NCBI GenBank assembly: GCA_029008875.1
Contig: JAQXJP010000003.1
Coordinates: 70,710-134,709, forward strand
Direction: 5' to 3'
DNA from: Lachnospiraceae bacterium
GTDB lineage: Bacteria; Bacillota; Clostridia; Lachnospirales; Lachnospiraceae
Length of the DNA stretch: 64,000 nucleotides
Shown piece after piece: positions 3,112 to 64,000 of the stretch (positions within the stretch are counted from its first letter, which is position 1; each line of letters opens with the position of its first letter). A model generated the notes under the pieces. The model worked only from the letters and a program-made list of their open reading frames with translations. It did no database searches and was not told the DNA's origin. A program made the translations under genes and the position numbers.

Positions 3112-3165
3112 TAGGGACAGTCCCCGTGCCAAAGGGCGATGGTCGTGCCAAAAGGAACGTCCCTA
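3112..3165. repeat. REP/MITE-like inverted-repeat element, copy 2
   Basis: 54 bp from TAGGGAC to CGTCCCTA, in the same orientation as the copy at 1021-1077 and sharing most of its interior (CCAAAGGGCGATGG, AGGAACGTCCCTA). It ends one base before the -35 box of the blaI promoter. Confidence 0.75.
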
Positions 3166-6312: not shown

Positions 6313-6396
6313 TTTGGGGACGTATCTTTTTCGCTCCGGGGACGTATCTTACGCGCGTAAGATACGTCCCCGGAGTGAAAAAGATACGTCCCCAAA
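6313..6396. repeat. 84-bp near-perfect palindrome of GGGGACGTATCTT modules
   Basis: A palindrome centred between 6354 and 6355 (ACGC/GCGT). The 42-nt arms pair throughout except for one G/T position, which still pairs as G-U in RNA. Each arm contains two GGGGACGTATCTT modules. No T-run follows, so it is not a simple intrinsic terminator, although it lies between two convergent genes and could act as a transcript end. The same module occurs inside the LtaS-like gene near 28.0 kb. Confidence 0.88.
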
Positions 6397-27178: not shown

Positions 27179-29182
27179 ATGAAAATGAGGATTCGTCTGG
27201 ACTTTCATTGGAAGAATTTTATATGGTTTGCCATCATCTTCGGACTGGCGCTGGTGATGTATTTCACCATCGGATTTGCATGGTGGGTGTTGCCGGTCTA
27301 CGGATTGGCGTACCTGGCAATCAGGAATACCAAGTTCGAACTCTCGGAAAAACTGCCATGGCTCTGGACCGCGATTTTGTTTGTGGGAGGAGCGGCACTG
27401 AATACTTTTTCCGTGCAGTACCTCCTGCTGGATGCGGAGCTTTTCGCAAGGACGACGACGCTCAAGCTGATTTTGAACGTGCTGGTCTGCCTGGTGCTGT
27501 ATTTGCTGATGTTGCTTTTTTCCAACCGGGTGACATTGAGCTGCATTACAGCCAATGTGTTTTGGCTGATTTTTGGGTTTGTCAATTATTTTGTCTATCT
27601 GTTTCGGCAAAACGAATTCTATTTTGCCGATATTCGGTCCATCGGGACAGGCCTCAGCGTTGCAGGTCAATATCAGCTGAGGCTGAATGATAAGGGCTGT
27701 TATGTGATTTTGGCCTGCGCCCTGTATATTACCCTGGTGCGCAGAATGAACGTGGAGTTTGGGAAACGCTGGCAGATGAGCATCATTTCCATGCTGGCGA
27801 TGGTGCTGTGCTGCGTGGCCGTGGGCGTTGAGACCATGGAAGTGAATACGGAGACCTGGGAGCAGAAGGGAACTTACCGCAACGGATATTTCCTGAATTT
27901 TGTCCTAAGCGTTCGGGACAGCTTTGTGGGAAAGCCGGAAGGCTACTCCAGGGAGTCAGTGGAAGCGCTGGAGGAGGAATACGGGAGCAGGGAAGATGCG
28001 TCTCTTGACGAAAAGGATACGTCCCTGAACGAAAAAGATACGTCCCCGGGCGAAAAAGATACGTCCCCGAACGAAAAGTCCCCGACGATTATCGTGATTA
28101 TGAATGAATCCTTTGCGGATTTGTCGGTGATCGGACCCATGGAGACCAACAGTCCGGTGACACCATTTATCGATTCCCTTTCGGAGAATACGGTCAAAGG
28201 GTATGCGCTGTCCTCCGTTTTTGGGGCCAAGACGCCCAACTCCGAGTGGGAGTTTCTGTCCGGCGGAACCATGGCGTTTTTGCCGGGGGGCTCTGTGGTG
28301 TATCAGCAGTATATCAGCGAGACGCCCACCACCCTGGTGTCTACCTTGAAGAACGAGGGTTACACCTGTGTGGCGATGCATCCCTATTATGACACGGGGT
28401 GGAGCCGCAATTTAGTCTATCCGGATATCGGATTCGATGAGATGTATTTTATCGAAGATTTTGACAAGACCCAGGTTTACCGGGAATATATTACGGATCA
28501 GGAAATGTATCGCAAGGTGATTGACCGGTTTGAAAACCGCAAGCGTAATGAGAAACTGTTCATCATGGGCATCACCATGCAAAACCATGGCGGTTACACC
28601 ACGGAATATGATAATTTCCCGGAACCGATATACAAGATCGGGCGTTCCTACACGGATGCCAATCAGTATCTGTCGCTGATTAATGCCAGCGACAAGGCGG
28701 TGGAGGAATTGATTCAGTATTTTTCCCAGGTGGAGGAACCTGTGGAGATTGTGTTTTTCGGGGATCATCAGCCCAGCCTGACCACCGAGTTCTATCCGAT
28801 CCTGAATGGAAAAGGAACGGTCAATTTGTCGGAGGAGGAGATGGAAAATCTCTACAAAGTTCCCTTTTTCATCTGGACCAACTATGACAGCCCGGAGGAG
28901 GCGGTGGAGATTACCAGCTTAAATTATCTGTCCACCATGACTCTGGAGCGGGCGGGGATAGACCTGCCGCCCTACAATCAGTTTTTGGCGGATTTGAGGG
29001 AACAGATTCCGGCAATCAATGCAAGAGGATATTATTCTTTGAATAATGAAACCTATCTGGCGGTGGAGGATGCGTCCGGCAAGGAGGCAGAGTGGTTGCG
29101 CCGCTATGAAATTTTGCAGTACAATGCCATGTTTGATGAAAAGGACAGAAGCAATCTGTTTTTTCCATACATCGAGGAGTAA
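27179..29182 (+). CDS. LTA synthase-like membrane sulfatase (glycerolphosphate transferase family)
   Basis: A 667-aa membrane enzyme with about five N-terminal membrane helices (residues 15-225) and a C-terminal extracellular sulfatase-fold domain starting IIVIMNESFADLSVIGP. Key features of LtaS-type enzymes are visible: the Glu in MNESF, the nucleophile Thr region FGAKTPNSEWEFLSGG, the GHW-like MHPYY and the metal site VFFGDHQPS. They build lipoteichoic acid or modify surface glycans with glycerol phosphate. The linker (residues 278-302) is made of REP-derived repeats (EKDTSPG type), described separately. It heads a forward gene run through cls. Confidence 0.9.
   Translation: MKMRIRLDFHWKNFIWFAIIFGLALVMYFTIGFAWWVLPVYGLAYLAIRNTKFELSEKLPWLWTAILFVGGAALNTFSVQYLLLDAELFARTTTLKLILNVLVCLVLYLLMLLFSNRVTLSCITANVFWLIFGFVNYFVYLFRQNEFYFADIRSIGTGLSVAGQYQLRLNDKGCYVILACALYITLVRRMNVEFGKRWQMSIISMLAMVLCCVAVGVETMEVNTETWEQKGTYRNGYFLNFVLSVRDSFVGKPEGYSRESVEALEEEYGSREDASLDEKDTSLNEKDTSPGEKDTSPNEKSPTIIVIMNESFADLSVIGPMETNSPVTPFIDSLSENTVKGYALSSVFGAKTPNSEWEFLSGGTMAFLPGGSVVYQQYISETPTTLVSTLKNEGYTCVAMHPYYDTGWSRNLVYPDIGFDEMYFIEDFDKTQVYREYITDQEMYRKVIDRFENRKRNEKLFIMGITMQNHGGYTTEYDNFPEPIYKIGRSYTDANQYLSLINASDKAVEELIQYFSQVEEPVEIVFFGDHQPSLTTEFYPILNGKGTVNLSEEEMENLYKVPFFIWTNYDSPEEAVEITSLNYLSTMTLERAGIDLPPYNQFLADLREQIPAINARGYYSLNNETYLAVEDASGKEAEWLRRYEILQYNAMFDEKDRSNLFFPYIEE
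27995..28084 (+). repeat. In-frame 21-nt repeats derived from the GGGGACGTATCTT module
   Basis: Three consecutive 21-nt units (28010-28030, 28031-28051, 28052-28072) each contain GATACGTCCC and encode EKDTSLN, EKDTSPG and EKDTSPN. Partial units flank them. The 17-mer GAAAAAGATACGTCCCC is identical to the arm of the intergenic palindrome at 6313-6396. Confidence 0.9.
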
Positions 29183-60480: not shown

Positions 60481-62385
60481 ATGAAAAGTGTTAACGTAGA
60501 TTTTAACAGTTCCAATATGATATCAACCTTCATCAGCGAACAGTTCTACGATTCCTGGGATGTATTTTTGCGGGAACTCTTGCAAAACGCATACGACGCC
60601 TGCTATACCAGACAGGCGCTGGAATGGAGCTGGGGGACGGAATTCCTGGAGTTGGAGGAAGCGGAAAAGGTTGCGTCCATACGCCGCGGTTTTTCCCCGC
60701 GCATTGTGGTGTCCTACAATTCGGAAAACGGGATGCTTTTTGTGGAGGATAACGGCATCGGAATCAATGCCAGCGATTTGGAAAAATATGTTGCGAAAAT
60801 CGGCAGCAGTTTCTATACCAGCGATGCATTTGAACAGCAACGATTAAAGTATGAGCCCATCTCGCAATTCGGGATTGGTTTATGCTCCTGTTTTCGTGTG
60901 TCCCGGGCCGTGTTGATTGAGTCCAAGAAGGATAAATCCATCAATACGGCGTGGAATGTCATGAATCCGGAGGAGCTGGAGCCCATTGCGGCAAAGTGGT
61001 TTAACGGGGCGGAGAATATTGAGTTTATCACCTCCAACCGCAAACTGGTGGGGACCAGGGTTACCTTGGCCCTTTTGCCGAAGTACGCCATGAACATCAC
61101 GTTGAAGCTTTTGGTTCAGACTATCCAGAAATACATGGTGTGTCAGCCCATTCCCATCGATGTGTATTTTGACCGCAAGAAGGTGATTTTGGACCAGCCC
61201 GGTATACCCAGCAGTCCCACCTCCTACGTGGTGGGTGTGACCACGCTTCAGATTGACAATGAACTGTTGGAGGGATATATCACGCTCTTCAATTCGAAGC
61301 ATCAGGATCTCGTGGCCAAGTCCGAGCTTTTTCAGCAGGGCTTTCGCATCTGCGACCACGCGGATGAGGTGGGGCTTAAGCCGGAGTGGATTCGCCACAT
61401 GGCGTTCCGCCTGAATGTGAAGAAGCGTTTTTTGAATTTGAAGATGACAAGGAATGGGGTTGCGGAGGATGATAACCTCAAGCAGCTTCGGGAGATGATC
61501 GGACAACTGATTATCACCTATTATCAGAAGAACCCTATCGGCCTGTCCCAGTATTTGAACGATGGCAGGCTCAATGTTTTGTCGGAGTATGAAAATGAGA
61601 TGTCCATGGTCATGAAGGCGCTTTTCATTCCGGTATACCTCAAGGGGCAGGAAGTGGAGCTGACGGTGGAGACCATTCTGAACGGCTTTTTGGGACAGAT
61701 TATCCGGATTGCGTTCATGAACCGGGAACTCTTTGATTTTTATCGTCGACAGTATCCCACGGAATTCAAGACCTTTTTGGGGAGATACAATCTGATTGCT
61801 TTTGAGAAGAACCGGGAACTGTTTACTCAGTTTCTTGCGCCGTACAACAAAGGCTATCGCTATGTGGTATCAGATCTGCCGGGGATTACATATATTGAAA
61901 TGGTGGCGGATATTCATATGAAGAAAAGCATTTCGCCCTATCGGAAGGGGTTCCAGCCCTATCCCCCGGAGGAAATCGACGATATGGTGTTTTGCTTTGT
62001 GGCCAATGAACAGAGCGGCCCCTTTCACATTATACTCAACAAAAATCACCGCAATGTGAAGCTTCTGGAGAGTTGCATTGACCATCCGAAGGTGAACAAT
62101 CTGCGGGAGGTTATCATTGAGAATATCAAGCAGAGGATTATTAATTCCCAAAACCATTGGAACAAAATTATTGATTTCGGGGGCTCCTTTGTGGATGAGT
62201 GGAGTTCAGATTCCCCTATGACGGTTCAGGCAATCTGGTGCCTGGAGAGGGATTTTGCGGATTCCGTGAATCAGTTTATCCAATTGAAGTTGACATCGGA
62301 TGAGCGAATTCAACTGGGCTTGGAAGGACTTGTGTTCCATGAGGAGGATTTCCTGAGTTGGTGGTACATGCCGCGGACAAAGTAG
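60481..62385 (+). CDS. Divergent Hsp90/HtpG-like GHKL ATPase
   Basis: A 634-aa protein of HtpG size. The N-terminal ATPase box VFLRELLQNAYDAC (E32, N36, D39) corresponds to FLRELISNASDA of Hsp90, VEDNGIGIN to its DNGIGM loop, and FGIGLCSCF to FGVGFYSAF. The middle and C-terminal parts (RLNVKKRFLNLKMTRNGVAED and beyond) are weakly like Hsp90. Sequence distance from canonical HtpG is large, so this is a separate subfamily with unknown client. It has its own promoter but a weak ribosome binding site. GC content returns to the level of the core genome here. Confidence 0.8.
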   Translation: MKSVNVDFNSSNMISTFISEQFYDSWDVFLRELLQNAYDACYTRQALEWSWGTEFLELEEAEKVASIRRGFSPRIVVSYNSENGMLFVEDNGIGINASDLEKYVAKIGSSFYTSDAFEQQRLKYEPISQFGIGLCSCFRVSRAVLIESKKDKSINTAWNVMNPEELEPIAAKWFNGAENIEFITSNRKLVGTRVTLALLPKYAMNITLKLLVQTIQKYMVCQPIPIDVYFDRKKVILDQPGIPSSPTSYVVGVTTLQIDNELLEGYITLFNSKHQDLVAKSELFQQGFRICDHADEVGLKPEWIRHMAFRLNVKKRFLNLKMTRNGVAEDDNLKQLREMIGQLIITYYQKNPIGLSQYLNDGRLNVLSEYENEMSMVMKALFIPVYLKGQEVELTVETILNGFLGQIIRIAFMNRELFDFYRRQYPTEFKTFLGRYNLIAFEKNRELFTQFLAPYNKGYRYVVSDLPGITYIEMVADIHMKKSISPYRKGFQPYPPEEIDDMVFCFVANEQSGPFHIILNKNHRNVKLLESCIDHPKVNNLREVIIENIKQRIINSQNHWNKIIDFGGSFVDEWSSDSPMTVQAIWCLERDFADSVNQFIQLKLTSDERIQLGLEGLVFHEEDFLSWWYMPRTK

Positions 62386-62417
62386 CGGAATTTTTGAAAA
62401 TGTAAGGAGACAGTTTG

Positions 62418-62993
62418 ATGGATAAGGATTTGAAAACGGAAGATTTGAATCGGGAGGAAGAACCTTCCGTGCTCCACGAGGTGGTTAGCTGGATTATGAC
62501 GTTCGCCGTTGCAATCGTTGCGGCTCTTTTGCTTAAGAACTTTGTGATCATCAATGCCACCGTTCCTACCGGCTCCATGGAGAATACCATTTTGCCGGGG
62601 GATGATTTGCTGGGATTTCGCCTCGCCTATCTGTTTTCGAAACCGGAGAGGGGAGATATCATTATTTTCAAATTCCCCGATGATGAGTCCCAGAAGTTTA
62701 TCAAGCGAATAATCGGACTGCCCGGAGAGTTGGTGCAGATTACGGACGGGCAGATCTATATCGATGGCTCCGAGGTGCCTTTGGAAGAAGACTATCTGAA
62801 AGAGGAATGGGTGGTAAGTACCGGACCTTATGAATTTGTGGTGCCGGAGGGCTGTTATTTCGTGATGGGGGATAACCGCAATAATTCCAAGGATTCCAGA
62901 TACTGGGAACAGCCATTCGTTACGGAAGATGAAATTATCGGAAAAGCGGAGTTCATCTATTTCCCCTTTAACCGGTTTACAAAGCTGAAATGA
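62418..62993 (+). CDS. lepB: Type I signal peptidase
   Basis: A 191-aa membrane protease that removes signal peptides of exported proteins. One membrane helix (about residues 24-45) is followed by the catalytic Ser in PTGSMENTILPGD and Lys in FIKRIIGLPGE, then the GDNRNNSKDSR box. The ATG at 62418 is 8 nt after AAGGAG; a TTG directly before it is unlikely. It sits 32 nt after the Hsp90-like gene, probably co-transcribed. Confidence 0.95.
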   Translation: MDKDLKTEDLNREEEPSVLHEVVSWIMTFAVAIVAALLLKNFVIINATVPTGSMENTILPGDDLLGFRLAYLFSKPERGDIIIFKFPDDESQKFIKRIIGLPGELVQITDGQIYIDGSEVPLEEDYLKEEWVVSTGPYEFVVPEGCYFVMGDNRNNSKDSRYWEQPFVTEDEIIGKAEFIYFPFNRFTKLK

Positions 62994-63003
62994 TGGAGGC
63001 CAT

Positions 63004-64000
63004 ATGATTACATTACTATCGAAAATCTTCATCCCCAAAGAGTTGAATGAAAATGAAAAACGTGGTGCGTACGGTGTGCTGTGCGGAGTTGTTGGTATCC
63101 TGCTGAACAGTTTATTGTTTGTGGGCAAATTTTTTGCCGGGTTGATCAGCGGCTCCATCGCCATCACCGCCGATGCGTTTAACAATCTGTCGGATGCGGG
63201 ATCGTCCGTGGTCACGCTGGTAGGCTTTAAGCTGGCGGGGCATAAACCGGATTCGGAGCACCCTTTTGGGCACGGCAGAATGGAGTATTTGGCCGGGCTC
63301 GGGGTTTCCGCGATGATTATTGTCATGGCGGTAGAGTTGATTCGCGATTCTATCGGCAAAATACTGCATCCGGCGGAGACGGAATTTTCTCCGCTGATTT
63401 TGGGAATACTGATTGCATCCATACTGGTGAAGATGTACATGGCTTTTTACAATAACCGGGTGGGGAAAAAGCTGAATTCCGCAACCATTCGCGCAGTGGC
63501 GACGGACAGTCTCAGCGATTGCGTCACCACATCCATTGTAATTGTCTCACTTCTGGTACAGCATTACTCCGGCCTGCAAATTGATGGATACTGCGGGGTC
63601 GCGGTGGGCGTCCTGATTTTTGCTGCAGGAATCGGGGCTGCCAAGGATACCATCAATCCCCTTTTGGGAACACCTCCCTCCGAGGAGTTTGTGAAGCAGA
63701 TTGAGGATATTACCCTTCATTTTGATGAGCGGGTGGTTGGCATCCACGACCTGATTGTGCACGACTACGGACCGGGAAGAAAGTTTATCTCCCTGCATGC
63801 GGAGGTTCCGGAGGAGGGCAATATTGTGGAACTCCATGAGGTGATTGACCAATTGGAGAAGCATCTGGGGGAGACACTGGATTGCATGGTGACCATTCAC
63901 ATGGATCCCATCGCAACTCAGGATGAGTTCGTGGCCGGCTTGAAGAAGCGGGTGGCCCACATTGTAAAAATCATGGATGAGAATATGGCAATCCATGATT
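63004..64000 (+). CDS. Cation diffusion facilitator family metal transporter (partial)
   Basis: 332 codons are visible; the gene runs off the window end. Six membrane helices are predicted. Metal sites are visible as ITADAFNNLSDAGSS (D-N/D motif in helix 2), HPFGHGRMEYL and ATDSLSDCVTTS (helix 5). The C-terminal cytoplasmic domain begins near GTPPSEEFVKQIEDI. Such proteins export Zn2+, Fe2+ or Mn2+ in exchange for protons. It starts 10 nt after lepB with GGAGG ahead of the ATG. Confidence 0.93.
   Translation, partial: MITLLSKIFIPKELNENEKRGAYGVLCGVVGILLNSLLFVGKFFAGLISGSIAITADAFNNLSDAGSSVVTLVGFKLAGHKPDSEHPFGHGRMEYLAGLGVSAMIIVMAVELIRDSIGKILHPAETEFSPLILGILIASILVKMYMAFYNNRVGKKLNSATIRAVATDSLSDCVTTSIVIVSLLVQHYSGLQIDGYCGVAVGVLIFAAGIGAAKDTINPLLGTPPSEEFVKQIEDITLHFDERVVGIHDLIVHDYGPGRKFISLHAEVPEEGNIVELHEVIDQLEKHLGETLDCMVTIHMDPIATQDEFVAGLKKRVAHIVKIMDENMAIHD

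Follow-up and report, generated by a model that had tools for sequence, protein, structure and literature searches.

A catalogue of intragenic REPs covering several species was published in 2013 (PMC3733652), and in its text the authors suggest that such REPs form flexible linkers of neutral effect and describe intragenic REP clusters that encode 43–82 amino acids in Thauera and R. conorii. The intragenic GTAG/CGTC REPs, as that text presents them, resemble the locus reported here in that REP units lie in frame in known proteins and are read as linkers, whereas the gene described below contains units of the same direction only, without a palindrome, and its host belongs to the Lachnospiraceae; the words 'Firmicutes' and 'Clostridium' do not occur in the main text of PMC3733652. 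The Rickettsia palindromic elements, as summarized in a review (PMC10969869), likewise constitute an in-frame repeat that adds a peptide to unrelated genes, but they are about 150 bp in length and are reported to occur many times per genome, whereas the present insert is 63 nt in length and lies in one gene body. The REP/REPIN–RAYT systems, as outlined in PMC3116915, share with the present family the high-copy short palindromes and a RAYT gene flanked by the repeat, whereas here the arms are arranged in multi-unit arrays of 21–22 nt, one of which is coding. Since REPs inside genes and the Rickettsia elements are already on record, the remark in the first-pass annotation of this DNA that coding REP repeats are rarely described calls for correction. 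The present case was not found in print in the open-licence literature: none of the eight papers containing the letters of the core, GATACGTCCC, is about REPs as judged from its title or the start of its abstract, and the two papers naming both Lachnospiraceae and a REP-associated tyrosine transposase mention each of them once. Intragenic REPs are already known but uncommon, and the insert in an LTA-synthase-like gene of a member of the Lachnospiraceae is clearly a new case.

The window, i.e. the whole 64,000-nucleotide stretch of DNA that was analysed, belongs to a 2.63 Mb draft genome of 43 contigs, and the contig that carries the gene is 142 kb in length. The 667-amino-acid protein consists of a helical membrane part followed by a Pfam Sulfatase domain (PF00884) at residues 302–593 (E = 1.9e-33), and its relatives in the PDB are GacH (5wcx), the LTA primase (4uop) and LtaS (2w5q). 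As in the phosphoglycerol transferases LtaS and GacH, the sulfatase-type domain is extracellular and the catalytic-type residues are conserved; in contrast to LtaS, the protein scores 42.6 bits against the LtaS equivalog model (NCBIfam NF053595), the cut-off of which is 970 bits. Because this score is far below the cut-off, the protein is named LTA-synthase-like. In an alignment of 32 sequences (A1, which omits L048, L066 and L070), Glu310, Thr352, His470, Asp529 and His530 (E310, T352, H470, D529 and H530) are invariant, and E310, T352, D529 and H530 are predicted to be catalytic, by analogy with LtaS.

As had been proposed from the sequence, three 21-nt units lie in frame in the linker between the membrane and catalytic domains (28010–28072), where they encode residues 278–298 of the open reading frame as EKDTSLN-EKDTSPG-EKDTSPN. 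The accompanying claim that the 17-mer of these units is identical to the arm of the palindrome at 6313–6396 holds for units 2 and 3, whereas unit 1 carries two mismatches. When up to three mismatches are allowed, the 17-mer has seven matches in the window, of which the palindrome accounts for four and the gene for three; shuffled sequence yields 0.16 on average. The in-gene array (score 112) is at the top of the 33 rows given by Tandem Repeats Finder for the window. Both in-gene junctions are 21 nt, which by itself is not improbable, and the reading frame that is used has the lowest hydropathy among the six frames of the array (GRAVY −2.10). No inverted arm was found in the in-gene array, which consists of three direct units and lacks a palindromic organization; as all units are direct, the gene holds the REP arm unit and not the palindrome. 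As expected of an intragenic REP, the REP-derived DNA lies wholly within the gene, in frame, and is absent from the orthologues examined. The stretches on both sides of the units may be native hinge, and EKxP is found at the position of the downstream EKSP in 11 of 64 distinct orthologues.

Table. Coordinates in the window of the LTA-synthase-like gene, its in-frame units and flanks, and the extragenic cluster of the same family.
Feature	Positions	Strand	Remarks
LTA-synthase-like membrane sulfatase/phosphoglycerol transferase gene, intact, 667 aa	27179..29182	+	ORF, Pfam, PDB relatives
Upstream flank EDASLD	27992..28009	+	Weak unit likeness; native hinge or decayed unit
REP-derived unit 1, EKDTSLN, GAAAAGGATACGTCCCTGAAC	28010..28030	+	Core GATACGTCCC; 17-mer with 2 mismatches
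REP-derived unit 2, EKDTSPG, GAAAAAGATACGTCCCCGGGC	28031..28051	+	17-mer exact
REP-derived unit 3, EKDTSPN, GAAAAAGATACGTCCCCGAAC	28052..28072	+	17-mer exact
Downstream flank EKSP, GAAAAGTCCCCG	28073..28084	+	Weak unit likeness; native hinge end or shortened unit
Extragenic REP cluster of this family; hairpin with two arms in each direction	6313..6396	.	Between scored ORFs (L011)

The REP origin of the array is borne out by counts across the host genome, in which the core occurs 105 times (48 + 57) against two (0 + 2) for a reversed-pattern control, the longer pattern GAAAARNNNACGTCCC has 64 matches against none, and paired cores occur 56 times against none. While eight of the 105 cores are lone, all of them located in scored ORFs and lacking REP context, the other 97 form 26 REP clusters; 96 cores fall in 25 of these, the LTA-gene cluster among them, and the 26th consists of an arm at C43:3425 and, next to it, two units with a variant core (3377 and 3398). 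Only the LTA-gene cluster is located in a gene body and the other 25 lie outside gene bodies, so that the genome-wide count called for in the first-pass annotation shows the repeat to be plentiful and, elsewhere in the genome, almost always outside genes. By ORF and codon scoring, which used a simple codon model and not a gene finder (the C43 clusters were checked separately by open frames), the other clusters are located between ORFs or at ORF ends, several of them touching or overlapping these ends. The clusters L012 and L034:7278–7374 each extend over the 5' portion of a predicted ORF, and because a purine-rich AAGGAGG stretch lies 3' of the array in both, the true ORF starts are probably downstream; in L034 two arms are spanned by a low-scoring 112-amino-acid ORF.

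The extragenic palindrome of the window folds as RNA into an almost perfect hairpin at −75.9 kcal/mol, and inverted arms are present in many extragenic clusters, i.e. the family has a palindromic organization genome-wide. CGTC is present in each core but lies within the paired arm, whereas the GTAG or CGTC tag of that superfamily is an unpaired one at one end, and the present family is not assigned to the superfamily. Direct-only extragenic clusters exist too, for example at C6:55864, C13:98067 and C18:28830. The 54 extragenic direct junctions are of 22 nt in 35 cases and 21 nt in 19; as 22 nt is the usual period, the frame-neutral 21-nt unit is not general in the family. At L016:3187–3325 and L025:3006–3208 a second, different palindrome lies between facing REP arms and gives nested inverted repeats; this palindrome, AAAGGACACATTTT, was set aside as a repeat family, having just three copies.

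The genome encodes a RAYT of 263 amino acids at C38:87967–88755 (L033:3068–3856), which scores 85.4 bits against the cut-off of 80 bits of NCBIfam NF047646 and contains HAH at residue 71, as found in a search for the HUH motif. The gene is flanked by arms of its own family, at C38:87928–87981 (minus strand, overlapping the 3' end of the gene) and 88851–88945 (plus strand). The C-terminus of the RAYT is EKDTSPE, followed by the stop; it is read from the left arm, and the frame is the one used in the LTA-gene insert, so that the repeat supplies the last codons of the RAYT gene as well. A second Y1/RAYT-like gene (L035; G000:C10, about 62000–63160) is located between 43-nt inverted arms (L035:1163–1205 and 2273–2315) with a related core, GGAACGTCCC. 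This second repeat family, represented by AAAAGGAACGTCCC, has 23 copies against one in the control, with some facing pairs about 560–580 nt apart (C10, C19) and one copy in the window at 3150–3163 (G000:C3:73859–73872).

Focusing on the 61 nt in the gene, these were compared with all 25 extragenic clusters on both strands. The smallest edit distance, 5, is to the array that lies to the right of the RAYT gene; seven further clusters share the next best value of 8, so that the match has a margin of just three edits, and blastn also favours the RAYT-side array (89.7 versus 82.4 bits). The translation of this array runs EKDTSLR EKDTSPE before the frame is lost, its second spacing being a frame-breaking 22 nt, whereas the corresponding spacing in the gene is 21 nt, one base fewer. 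This difference points to the copying of an array that was already assembled, with preservation of the frame. The DNA family match, the in-frame position in the hinge, the absence in orthologues and the arm-flanked RAYT together argue for insertion of a RAYT-linked array, and it is highly likely that the insert is a three-unit direct REP array of this kind, copied into a tolerant hinge with the frame kept by selection. In the favoured mode, a ready-made array of the RAYT-associated family would have been copied into the phosphoglycerol transferase gene at the hinge that joins the sulfatase domain to the final membrane segment, a region in which neither length nor sequence would matter much. 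The copy was presumably made by the activity of the RAYT, and the RAYT-side array or a sister of it may have been the donor, as judged from sequence likeness. The orientation and frame of the insert are those giving the most hydrophilic peptide; a frame-shifting copy would kill the enzyme, leaving as the survivor one of 63 nt, a multiple of three, and either the loss of one base or a donor already short of that base would have kept the frame at the second junction. The effect of the insertion was presumably near neutral, and a tolerated hinge insertion is the most economical reading. No sign of a useful role, as the term 'domesticated' of the first-pass annotation would imply, was seen.

A mode with the same origin, which overlaps with the copying of an array and is judged unlikely, is that a single REP arm was captured via short identity with a hinge already reading like ACGAAAA(A/G)...CCG, and was then duplicated on site as 21-nt in-frame tandem units. 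The in-gene junctions TGAAC and CGGGC, as well as CGAAC after unit 3, have no counterpart among the 54 extragenic direct junctions, and because these letters are private, local duplication after the capture of one arm would also fit. In addition, the native hinge DNA of the orthologue L041, TCGAACGAAAAAGAGCCGACG, encodes NEKEPT and is similar to the arm, and the downstream flank, GAAAAGTCCCCG, holds both arm ends. However, the order of the junction types, first T-type at 21 nt and then CGG(A)GCG, is best matched by the RAYT-side array, and local duplication would not predict this RAYT-like order. We favour the copying of a ready-made array over one-arm capture with duplication.

Orthologues without the insert had been expected from the first-pass annotation, and EKDTS is indeed absent from all 86 orthologue rows, including that of G018, the only further species in the genus in which this repeat was detected. 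The peptide was not found in distant orthologues with unrelated DNA, nor was the 17-mer absent elsewhere in the genome, the two outcomes that had been named in advance as speaking against the first-pass interpretation. The 86 rows comprise 83 rows (65 distinct sequences; the 34-locus set overlaps the genus set) and L168–L170, and the orthologue was read in 52 of the 61 genus genomes other than the host (L072–L120, L168–L170); G001, G012, G014, G022, G025, G027, G037, G042 and G054, with no close orthologue across the hinge, were left out. Many of the orthologue loci share the gene neighbours (18 of 33 on the downstream side, 20 of 33 on the upstream side), which marks the gene as a genuine orthologue and not the product of a misjoined assembly. 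The named orthologues are mostly from the Lachnospiraceae, e.g. Roseburia and Agathobacter; the nearest are at most 67% identical to the 667-amino-acid protein, and for this reason the empty site and the exact ends of the insert are not readable from them. One of the best hits, L037 (JAMPCA010000001.1), titled as a Muribaculaceae MAG, contains a 64%-identical orthologue with conserved neighbours, and this label looks wrong.

The hinge is 45–116 amino acids long (median 49) in 82 orthologue rows (L070, which has no hinge, is excluded, L168–L170 are outside the length figures and L112 has ambiguous residues), and six rows with hinges of at least 68 amino acids are unrelated in sequence. The hinge of the host is 68 amino acids, or 47 without the three units; as the latter is in the common range, three units are the simplest insert size. 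In the AlphaFold2 model, used here for hinge confidence, residues 274–298 have a pLDDT of <50 and no secondary structure and are bordered by a helix on one side and the first catalytic strand on the other (the model, with a mean of 78.3, is also weak at, for example, 142–166 and 221–236), and the hinge around the insert is predicted to be disordered. It is rather improbable that the number of units varies among strains and sets the distance between the catalytic domain and the membrane, as a selected form of the variable spacer proposed in the first-pass annotation. The number of direct 21-nt units can rise or fall with the frame intact, and the length of the hinge does vary among orthologues, but the other long hinges are unrelated to the insert and no benefit is evident. 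L118 (G047) has by far the longest hinge, of 116 amino acids; a repeat origin for it, the sole one tested, is ruled out because its DNA is single copy in that genome. A slightly less probable version still is that the RAYT-linked REP array is a length-adjustable spacer stepped by 21 nt, a selfish-repeat contingency locus for surface polymer synthesis.

Paired cores were detected in two of 62 genus genomes (the host and G018) and in one of 397 genomes of the family sample (the host). G018 has the same arm core in two hits (L157, L158) with a spacing of 23 nt, and no RAYT relative was found in this 68%-complete genome; RAYT relatives at E ≤ 1e-10 are present in six of the 62 genus genomes, including the host. 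The 21-amino-acid peptide was found in one of 392 genomes of the order sample (the host), at eight places, of which only that in the LTA gene has a long frame (672 amino acids); the other frames are of 35–163 amino acids, and those at C33, C40 and C6 look non-coding by eye. The coding insert was seen in no other species of the genus, family and order samples, in searches that require near-exact cores and that diverged REPs would therefore escape, and viral contigs contained no exact 17-mer. On these sequence comparisons the REP family in its exact form appears close to private to the host species, and the insertion into the LTA gene is thus probably recent on the species scale.

Some REP clusters of the 43-contig draft are at contig ends (L009, L010, L018, L027), but an assembly or binning artefact at the repeat is very improbable, as the sequence on the two sides of the array reads as a single uninterrupted orthologous protein, the neighbouring genes are conserved, the contig is 142 kb in length and the array is just 63 nt. 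The last alternative, a protein-level low-complexity expansion of the acidic/lysine hinge with a chance likeness to the REP, finds a parallel in the lengthened hinges of other orthologues, which are unrelated in sequence and often S/T- or G-rich, but is ruled out by the two exact 17-mers and the genome counts of the core and of GAAAARNNNACGTCCC.

In conclusion, a transposase-linked short repeat has added codons to a conserved gene of a gut member of the Lachnospiraceae; the array from which it came can probably be named, the constraint of the reading frame is visible, and the hinge of a surface enzyme can evidently absorb REP DNA. If strains do differ in the number of units, this would provide testable length variation by a mobile repeat in an envelope enzyme.
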